Assembly (NCBI GenBank): GCA_028284155.1
Contig: JANQSF010000124.1
Span: forward strand, 1 to 64,000
Source: Phycisphaeraceae bacterium
GTDB lineage: Bacteria; Planctomycetota; Phycisphaerae; Phycisphaerales; Phycisphaeraceae
Length of the DNA: 64,000 nt
Direction of reading: 5' to 3'
The translations under genes and the position numbers were made by a program. The notes beneath the pieces were generated by a model. That model saw only the letters and a list, made by a program, of their open reading frames with translations, was not told where the DNA came from and made no database searches. This document shows, piece by piece, positions 25,534 to 56,310 of the stretch (positions are counted from its first letter, which is position 1; each line of letters begins with the position of its first letter).

Positions 25534-25618
25534 TTGTCCAAAACGTAGGGTGCGCTTCAGCGCACCAACAACACGGGACAGTTTCCGAACGGACGTGGTG
25601 CGCTGAAGCGCACCCTAC
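25534..25618. repeat. REP-like paired hairpin element E1 with upstream tag
   Basis: A 74-bp element (25545-25618) begins GTAGGGTGCGCTTCAGCGCA and ends with the inverted equivalent. Each arm is GTAG plus an 18-base hairpin, the classic REP layout, set as an inverted pair around a 30-base spacer. The 11 bases before it, TTGTCCAAAAC, match the tag before E3. Copies E2 and E3 have exactly the same length. Confidence 0.85.
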
Positions 25619-40299: not shown

Positions 40300-40334
40300 T
40301 ACCGGGCTTTGTCCGAAGTATCACCGGCACGCCC

Positions 40335-40408
40335 GTAGGGTGCGCTTTAGCGCACCAAGGACGCGGGGAATCCGTCCGTTTATCATGGTGCGCTGAAGCG
40401 CACCCTAC
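40335..40408. repeat. REP-like paired hairpin element E2
   Basis: It has the same 74-bp length and arms as E1 and E3. Its reverse complement differs from E3 at only three positions, so the 30-base spacer is conserved as well as the arms, and E2 is inverted relative to E3. TTGTCCGAAG occurs 16 bases before it (40309-40318). It lies between convergent gene ends. Confidence 0.88.
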
Positions 40409-40438
40409 TTGTTGGATGAAGCCTTGAGTGTGTGTTGA

Positions 40439-42941: not shown

Positions 42942-42987
42942 AGAGCACTGCGGCGATCCCGGCGCTGCTTTCCTACACTTGCTGCTT

Positions 42988-44514
42988 ATGCCTCCCACCG
43001 CCGACCCCATCCAGACGATCGCCTTCGTCAGCCTCGGCTGCCCGAAGAACCTGGTCGATTCCGAGAAGATGCTCGGCCTGCTGGCTGAGGACGGGCTGAT
43101 CCCCGTGGCCGACGAGACCGAGGCCGACGCGATCGTGATCAATACCTGCGGCTTCCTTGAGGCGTCGAAGGACGAGTCGATCGCCGAGATCGAGCGGGCC
43201 GCTGAATTCAAACGTGCCGGCTCGTGCAAGCGCATTGTCGTTGCCGGTTGTCTCGTGCAACGACACCGCGCGAAGATGCTTGACTACTGCCCGGACATCG
43301 ACGCATTGATCGGCGTGTTCGACCGCGACCGCATCGTCGACGCCGTGCGCCCCGCGTCGCAATCGCCGCAAGCGAGCGCCGCTTTAGCGGCGGGTGCTGA
43401 CGCCCCGGTCTACTCGAGCATCGCCGCCAACGCGACGCTCGCCAAGCGCGCCCGCGCGATCGAAGCCGACGGCTACTTCGAGTCCGACGCCGCGCGTCTG
43501 CGACTCACGCCGCGCCACTACGCCTATCTGCGCATTAGCGAGGGCTGCAACCAGAACTGCTCGTTCTGCACGATCCCGTCGATCCGCGGCAAGATGCGGT
43601 CGAAGCCGGTCGAGTCGATCCTGACCGAGGCCCGCGAGCTGTTCGCCGACGGCGCGTTCGAGTTGAACCTGATCGGCCAGGACACGACCAGCTACGGCGA
43701 CGACATCGGCTATGGCGCAGGTCTGTCGGGGATGTTGACCGAACTCGACGCGCTGGCGCAGGGCATTCAAGGAGGTTCCGGGGGCGCGTGGTTGCGCCTC
43801 ATGTACGCGTACCCGTCGTGTTTCACCGACGAGATGATCGACACGCTCGCCGCGCTGGCGAATGTCGTCAAGTACATCGACATGCCGTTGCAGCACATCA
43901 ACGATCGCGTGCTCGACTCGATGAAACGGCGGACCAGCCGTTCGTTGATCGAAACGTTGCTGCACAAGCTGCGCGACCGCGTACCGGGCATCGCCCTGCG
44001 CACGACGTTTATCACGGGTTACCCGGGCGAGACCGAAGACGAGCACCGCGAGTTGGTCGAGTTTGTCAGCGAATTCGGCTTTGACCACATGGGTGTATTC
44101 ACCTATTCACCCGAGCCGGGCACGCCGGCCGGCTCGCTGCACGACGCGCAGGCGGTTGACGAGGAAACCGCGCAGCGTCGTTATGAAGAACTCATGCTCG
44201 CGCAACAACAGGTCGTGTTTGATCACAACGCGAAGTTGGCTGATACGGAGTCGCCGTGCGACGTACTGATCGACGAGCCGACGGATTCGTACGTGCAACC
44301 CACGGCCGGCGTCACGAAGGGTGGTCGTTTGTATGTCGGGCGGACCGGCCGACAGGCACCGGACGTCGACAGCGTGACGTATGTCATGTCGAACGCGGAC
44401 CTGTCGCCGGGCGAGTTGGTCCGTTGCGTGACCGTCGAGGCGGATGGGTACGACCTGATCGCCCGCCCGGTGGACGAGCGATCGCCGAGTCTGCGGCTGC
44501 CGATCCTGTCGTGA
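42988..44514 (+). CDS. rimO: Ribosomal protein S12 methylthiotransferase
   Basis: A 508-residue RimO that adds a methylthio group to a conserved Asp of ribosomal protein S12. The N-terminal cluster cysteines are C18 (VSLGCPKNLVDSEKMLG), C54 (INTCGFL) and C88 (VAGCLVQR). The radical-SAM motif is C187NQNC191SFC194 followed by TIPSIRGKMRSKP. YPGETEDEHRELVEFV and the C-terminal TRAM domain are present. The linker before the radical-SAM domain (SPQASAALAAGADAP) contains hairpin T. ATG 42988 is preferred over a TTG three codons upstream. Its last 18 bases are repeated beyond element E3. Confidence 0.94.
   Translation: MPPTADPIQTIAFVSLGCPKNLVDSEKMLGLLAEDGLIPVADETEADAIVINTCGFLEASKDESIAEIERAAEFKRAGSCKRIVVAGCLVQRHRAKMLDYCPDIDALIGVFDRDRIVDAVRPASQSPQASAALAAGADAPVYSSIAANATLAKRARAIEADGYFESDAARLRLTPRHYAYLRISEGCNQNCSFCTIPSIRGKMRSKPVESILTEARELFADGAFELNLIGQDTTSYGDDIGYGAGLSGMLTELDALAQGIQGGSGGAWLRLMYAYPSCFTDEMIDTLAALANVVKYIDMPLQHINDRVLDSMKRRTSRSLIETLLHKLRDRVPGIALRTTFITGYPGETEDEHRELVEFVSEFGFDHMGVFTYSPEPGTPAGSLHDAQAVDEETAQRRYEELMLAQQQVVFDHNAKLADTESPCDVLIDEPTDSYVQPTAGVTKGGRLYVGRTGRQAPDVDSVTYVMSNADLSPGELVRCVTVEADGYDLIARPVDERSPSLRLPILS
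43376..43394. repeat. Hairpin T inside rimO
   Basis: GCGCCGCTTTAGCGGCG is a perfect stem on a three-base loop in the linker between the two cluster domains of RimO. In the coding frame it gives SAALAAG, a length-tolerant, Ala-rich insertion. Confidence 0.45.
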
Positions 44515-44638
44515 TGAATGGGGATTAGGCTTTGTCCGAAAAGTAGGGTGCGCTTCAGCGCACCACGATGAACGGACGGTTTCCCCGCGTCCTTGGTGCG
44601 CTAAAGCGCACCCTACGGGTCTGCCGATCCTGTCGTGA
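44497..44638. repeat. 18-bp direct repeat enclosing element E3
   Basis: CTGCCGATCCTGTCGTGA ends rimO at 44497-44514 and recurs exactly at 44621-44638. Between them lie 106 bases: 17 of unique sequence, an 11-base tag TTGTCCGAAAA (44532-44542), the 74-bp element E3 (44543-44616) and 4 bases. E3 has the REP-pair layout of E1/E2 and is 71/74 identical to inverted E2. The second copy no longer codes for anything. Confidence 0.9.
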
Positions 44639-44696: not shown

Positions 44697-44945
44697 CTAC
44701 TCTTCTTCTTTAAAACCACCGTCGCTCTTCTCCGCTTGAAACTCCGCGACGATCTCGCGCGCGGCGTTGGCCTGTCCGGGCAGGACGCGCACCGGGTTGC
44801 CCTGGTCGCCGGCGGTCAGGCCGTCAAGTGGGCTGTCGGTATTGTCGATGAACACCTCGATGCTGGCTTCTTCTAAACGGTCGGCCAGCAGCTTGGCCTC
44901 GAACAGCGTCGCAGCGGTGTAGACGTTGACCAGGTCGTCGGGCAT
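44697..44945 (-). CDS. DUF2007 family small protein
   Basis: An 82-residue protein. LVNVYTAATLFEAKLLADRLEEASIEVFIDN is the typical start of DUF2007, a ferredoxin-like domain proposed to act in signalling, and NPVRVLPGQANAAREIVAEF its second half. The tail is charged (KSDGGFKEEE). I chose ATG 44945 with GGAG 11 bases upstream; an in-frame GTG three codons earlier also exists. The protein is soluble. It is divergent from the next gene, with 50 bases between the start codons. Confidence 0.8.
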   Translation of the reverse strand: MPDDLVNVYTAATLFEAKLLADRLEEASIEVFIDNTDSPLDGLTAGDQGNPVRVLPGQANAAREIVAEFQAEKSDGGFKEEE

Positions 44946-44995
44946 TGGGGGCACTCCACGGGCTGTCAGGGTTTGTGGGAATCACAGGGGGGATC

Positions 44996-55950: not shown

Positions 55951-56095
55951 TCGGGCGCGTTGCCCGACGTTTGGAAGTGCAACGTCTTTGAACTGCCGGG
56001 TGCCACACTTTGTCCCGAAGGGCAAAGTATGCACGGCGCGCCTTGCGTGTCCGATCGCACAACGGCACACTTTGCAAAGCCAAGGTGTGGCACCG
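55951..56095. repeat. Hairpin J2 and palindrome I1
   Basis: GTCGGGCGCGTTGCCCGAC (55951-55969) is a single J-type hairpin. I1 (55996-56095) has left arm GGGTGCCACACTTTGTCCCG, itself a hairpin through CTTTG...CAAAG, and right arm CACACTTTGCAAAGCCAAGG continuing TGTGGCACC. A second I unit lies at 56225-56310. Confidence 0.72.
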
Positions 56096-56104
56096 GACAT
56101 CGGG

Positions 56105-56225
56105 TCACCCCCGATTCAACTTCCCCATGAACCGATCCCCGCCCGGCTCCAGCATCCAGTCTTCCCAACCGAGGTGGCGACAAACCCCACCGCGCGCATC
56201 GTTTCGTCTGGGTCGGTCGTGAGCC
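56105..56225 (-). pseudogene. GNAT acetyltransferase 3' fragment, frameshifted
   Basis: On the minus strand this reads [14 protein letters not shown], then one base is missing, then [23 protein letters not shown] and TGA (56105-56107). It matches the C-terminal third of the intact GNAT gene at 57984-58499 ([26 protein letters not shown]...). The homology is cut off at 56225, where palindrome I2 begins. The upstream two thirds of the gene are absent. Confidence 0.8.
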
Positions 56226-56310
56226 GGGTGCTACACTTTGTCCCGAAGGGCAATGTGTACATAGCGCGCCTTGGATGTCCCGTACACCGAACGGTACACT
56301 TTGCAGAGCG
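56225..56310. repeat. Palindrome I2
   Basis: GGGTGCTACACTTTGTCCCG with its inverted partner ACGGTACACTTTGCAGAGCG. It starts exactly where the GNAT fragment stops and ends 7 bases before the ATG of the pseudopilin gene, so it must lie in that gene's leader. Confidence 0.7.

Follow-up and report, generated by a model that had tools for sequence, protein, structure and literature searches.

The end of rimO raises the question of how the last 18 bp of an intact gene come to stand a second time on the far side of a short repeat element, termed E3. The original prediction held that an 18-mer including the rimO stop codon is repeated exactly, just beyond E3. Our analysis of the window, by which we mean the whole 64-kb stretch of DNA under study, agrees with it in every coordinate: CTGCCGATCCTGTCGTGA is found at both sites listed in Table 1, with a spacing of 124 and a gap of 106 bp, and the left copy contains the TGA stop of rimO (44512-44514). 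A search of the 64-kb window for a third site, allowing up to 3 mismatches, found none. RimO homologues in the family stop at about the same position, many of them with the ending LPxxx*, and the rimO copy is therefore the native and the right copy the derived one. The order rimO-DUF2007 with a short gap was also seen, by inspection, in the relative G029 (L068).

Table 1. Features of the rimO-E3 locus, with positions in the window.
Feature	Position	Strand	Evidence
rimO, radical SAM methylthiotransferase, intact	42979..44514	+	ORF; Pfam UPF0004 + Radical_SAM + TRAM_2; homologues in at least 33 family genomes
Native (left) 18-mer, starting with CT and covering the five final rimO codons and the stop	44497..44514	+	sequence match, RimO homologue ends
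12-nt spacer between rimO stop and E3 left inverted repeat; missing behind the right 18-mer	44515..44526	+	
Intact terminal inverted repeat AGGCTTTGTCCGAAAA on the left side of the MITE-like shell of E3	44527..44542	+	
E3 core, head-to-head GTAG-tagged REP pair; one mismatch to the family consensus	44543..44617	+	
E3 hairpin 1	44547-44564		
E3 hairpin 2	44595-44612		
Foot CTAC	44613-44616		
Joint GGT|CT, at the site of the missing normal right end GGTGGGCCGGTGACATTTCGGACAAAGCCTA; CT at 44621-44622, 4 nt past CTAC	44618..44622	+	
Derived (right) copy of the rimO end	44621..44638	+	
DUF2007 gene, neighbour	44697..44954	-	ORF, Pfam

A chance match had been judged very unlikely, and our controls bear this out. 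The window contains only two exact repeats of at least 18 bp within 250 bp, one of which is the rimO-end 18-mer, and eight Markov resamples of the window yielded 0 or 1 repeated 14-mers each. Moreover, we compared the left with the right flanks of 60 copies of the element, using all 3540 mismatched left/right pairs of the same family as controls. With the hairpin foot as anchor, the match beside E3 (18/18) exceeds every one of these control pairs. The duplication is real and not due to chance.

The element to which E3 belongs is about 125 bp long, and its 60 copies were collected across the 7.2-Mb genome. Its consensus reads TTAGGCTTCGTCCGAAAA-(GTAG hairpin 1 - spacer - hairpin 2 CTAC)-GGGTGGGCCGGTGACATTTCGGACAAAGCCTAA, that is, a head-to-head GTAG-tagged REP pair (REPIN-like) in a MITE-like shell bounded by terminal inverted repeats. 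A short hairpin has GTAG at its foot, present as GTAG followed by GGTGCGCTTCAGCGCACC and as the mirror image thereof. The REP arms of E3 are inverted and head-to-head (44543-44565 and 44594-44616), a layout seen in most of the 60 copies, and the DNA fold is strong (z = -4.9). The terminal inverted repeats of the shell are AGGCTTYGTCCGAAA and TTTCGGACAAAGCCT, of which E3 retains only the left one; its core is nearly perfect and its right end is replaced by the copy of the rimO end. E3 is a copy of this nested element that has lost its right end. The stretch GTGACTTTCGG that follows the E3 core resembles the right inverted repeat weakly (its score is reached by about 7 among 1720 GTGA sites of the background, p ~0.004); we do not take it for a remnant of the tail, because so decayed a tail would not fit a core this well preserved. 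We looked for a parental insertion sequence sharing these inverted repeats, but the additional matches were either different REP-type elements or more copies of the element itself. The element was found only in its own genome among 400, being absent from the 399 others sampled from the order; relatives in the family, too distant to reveal an empty site, share about 71% protein identity, and their intergenic DNA could not be aligned by eye.

Several repeats elsewhere deserve mention. Further copies of the element lie in the window at 40325-40424 (full-length, minus strand) and at 25534-25618 (spacer divergent, inverted repeats degenerate). The sequence AGGCTTCGTCCGACAAGTAGAGTGGGCCGGTGATATATCGG (L249, 1557-1610) resembles the shell without the REP pair and may represent an ancestral form. 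The same genome contains, in at least 30 copies (L251, L257-L286), a second family of REP pairs, which is longer (about 116 nt) and reads GTAGGGTGGGCC...GGCCCACCCTAC. Finally, the window holds a 58-nt direct repeat (55995-56052 and 56223-56280, 228 bp apart) that is 86% identical, includes an exact 21-mer and forms part of a different class of palindromic repeats (CACACTTTG...CAAGGTGTG).

A genome-wide search for similar duplications beside other copies of the element, as had been proposed, found three more (L024, L028 and L037), all among copies without a right end. The matches anchored at the hairpin foot comprise 31/36 positions in L024 and 29/32 in L028, each above all 3540 controls, and 17/21 in L037 (p = 0.0003, same controls). 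Together with E3, flank copies are thus present in 4/10 copies that have kept the left end and lost the right inverted repeat, compared to 0/39 copies with both ends (Fisher p = 0.001). They begin 0-4 nt from the end of the core and vary in length from 18 to about 36 nt. Those of L024, L028 and L037 have diverged (81-91% identity). The copied pieces are the end of the adjacent gene in L024 (a PQQ-repeat-like protein, named by inspection), the start of a queC-like gene in L028 (likewise named by inspection) and the surroundings of the stop codon of an unnamed gene in L037. Flank alignments that allowed gaps at loose penalties gave no useful information. A similar but shorter case, with a 17-nt flank similarity at the foot, is L266 of the second REP-pair family. 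In L002, the right flank (C37:2100-2190) is a diverged in-frame homologue of the C-terminus of the adjacent dehydrogenase-like gene and lies directly at the hairpin foot. L210, a copy whose left end is lost, lies with its left flank within a repetitive CTCGTAATCG stretch, which is also found directly at its right end.

The lost ends themselves share a signature. Read outward from either side, the usual sequence at a lost shell end is CTAC, 2-4 nt and then CT. With lost ends defined by low inverted-repeat scores, so that a small number may only have decayed, CT starts 3-5 nt after CTAC at 16/24 of them, whereas 12% would be expected (p = 8e-10); among all dinucleotides and offsets tried, CT at 3-5 gave the strongest signal. 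At kept ends CT occupies this position in 7/90 cases. The joints read GGGTCT (3 cases, including E3), GGGCT (6 cases), TTTTCT or TTGTCT (4 cases), or otherwise. The copied stretch begins in the left flank itself at CT in E3, whose 18-mer starts with these letters, and in L024, and at CA in L028; because of this, CT appears to mark a cut in the copied site and not merely an inherited element end. Purified TnpA_REP cuts in vitro at C|T located 5' or 3' of REPs, and one such enzyme also at C|A; it has discrete distant cut sites and rejoins the ends (PMC8266576). The joints thus lie near the REP at C|T (the 16/24 ends) or C|A (L028), as expected for a TnpA_REP strand-transfer product. The duplication at the rimO end is a scar at a REPIN-like element, with joints that match RAYT cutting.

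The explanation that we favour, if with some reserve, is that a RAYT-like enzyme may well have joined the 3' foot of E3 to C|T in the rimO end, whereby the flank was duplicated and the right end of the element removed. On single-stranded DNA, a HuH transposase of the RAYT/TnpA_REP type would have cut at two C|T sites, one in the rimO end and one immediately 3' of the REP pair, and linked the 3' end of the element (...CTACGGGTC) with the T at the rimO cut. The resulting joint would represent the junction of an excised circle made up of the rimO end and E3, or that of a sister-strand exchange; once the product was re-inserted or resolved at this same site, rimO would be intact, and E3 would lack its right end and be followed by 18 nt of the gene end. 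We favour such a joint because flank copies are confined to copies that have lost the right end and start next to the end of the core, because lost ends are enriched in CT and CT and CA are cut sites of TnpA_REP, because the core has the GTAG-plus-hairpin form that such enzymes recognise, and because the genome encodes two Y1 proteins whose best match is the REP-associated transposase model.

The two Y1 proteins score 49.5 and 59.2 bits, below the cut-off of 80 bits, and the stretches examined around both genes contain no hairpin of the element; a cognate RAYT flanked by the same REPs was not found in this draft genome of 96% completeness. Both the low scores and the missing neighbouring copies count against RAYT action, as does the restriction of the known reaction to in vitro experiments. 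Just upstream of one RAYT-like gene lies a perfect 29-nt inverted repeat (L255, 1296-1375) that is unlike the element and possibly that enzyme's own repeat. RAYT action would also have to account for two details. One is the source of the C in the C|T of the foot, because full-length tails have no CT at this position; the other is the lack of a second element after the right 18-mer, for which a further step would be needed. The L002 locus, where a strongly diverged flank homologue adjoins a pristine element, suits recombination better.

Among the rivals, template switching ranks before recombination with a diverged allele, which in turn ranks before a true long target-site duplication. Template switching in replication or repair would be driven by the hairpins and need no transposase: the nascent strand would fold into a hairpin, slip to the left flank, copy 18-40 nt and jump past the element. 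We consider this unlikely, if still a serious contender. It would fit break points that always lie at the hairpin foot, the strong DNA fold and the variable copy length, and GTGA, which ends the 18-mer and occurs in the normal tail of the element (GGTGAC), might have served as microhomology. It does not, however, predict the CT at the joint, nor the CT joints at lost left ends that have no flank copy.

Unlikely to a similar or slightly higher degree is recombination with a diverged allele, in which DNA from another strain, carrying rimO and E3, would have taken the place of the resident gene as far as the hairpin foot, with the resident end left beyond it (homology-facilitated illegitimate recombination). 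The divergence of the copies in L024, L028 and L037, where several differences are synonymous or stop-for-stop, speaks for it, as does L002, where the C-terminus of the neighbouring gene has diverged (QVQAEP..TVH* / QVPAEP..TVH*) beside a nearly perfect element. Against this, the copy at E3 is 18/18 identical, yet the sequences after the two copies are unrelated, and CT joints are not predicted; the codon argument rests on few sites. A codon-phase argument for allelic divergence was abandoned, as there were too few sites and the apparent case, L266, proved not to be a gene end.

The original prediction saw in the duplication a footprint of the event that placed E3, either a long target-site duplication or template switching. 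The tie to an event at E3 stands, and template switching is retained as a rival, but the evidence speaks against a simple target-site duplication. Insertion of a shortened element, reaching from the left inverted repeat to CTACGGGT, with an 18-bp duplication would place direct repeats against both its ends, as is the case in L028 and nearly so in L024. This is nevertheless improbable in view of the variable length, the complete lack of such duplications beside two-ended copies, in contrast to copies without a right end, and the 12 extra nt on the left side of E3. As to the short target-site duplication typical of a MITE, the element ends are often TA but palindromic with the inverted repeats. 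We know of no transposase that makes long duplications of this kind, and for a REP element the duplication is, as had been remarked, odd. Finally, chance or an assembly artefact, the latter conceivable in one draft assembly of 161 contigs, is hardly credible at all: E3 surpasses every control pair, the 142-bp span can be crossed by ordinary reads, and an assembly error is unlikely because three more loci in the genome have the same arrangement with diverged flank copies.

How REP elements move has been called a "central but unresolved issue" (PMC3116915), and the TnpA_REP study describes the mechanisms as poorly understood (PMC8266576). What is new here is that the joints coincide with CT, where REP-associated transposases cut. 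Genomic CT joints that match the specificity of the purified enzyme, if they are combined with duplication of a flank, would represent scars left by the reaction in vivo and supply a testable structure for its intermediate. It is conceivable, but rather doubtful, that REPINs spread in this genome through RAYT-made circles or sister-strand joints that take in adjacent gene ends, the gene-end copies being in vivo footprints of this process. Compared to known systems, the element resembles REPINs and GTAG REP dimers in its GTAG foot with a short palindrome, its head-to-head pairs of about 100 bp and its tens of copies, mostly between genes (PMC3116915; PMC3733652). It differs from them in having a shell with its own inverted repeats, a lineage-specific sequence and flank copies joined at the foot. 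GTAG families have been reported from Planctomycetes, where tandem REP clusters include flanking DNA of variable length (PMC3116915; PMC3733652). GTAG-15 dimers of A. variabilis (PMC3733652) likewise consist of a REP pair inside a longer palindromic shell, although the sequences differ and no transposase parental to the shell was found here. Finally, strand transfer by TnpA_REP/RAYT resembles the joints described here in its use of C|T (and C|A) to the left or right of an adjacent GTAG REP; that work, however, was done in vitro (PMC8266576), whereas our joints are read from the genome and the enzyme is putative.
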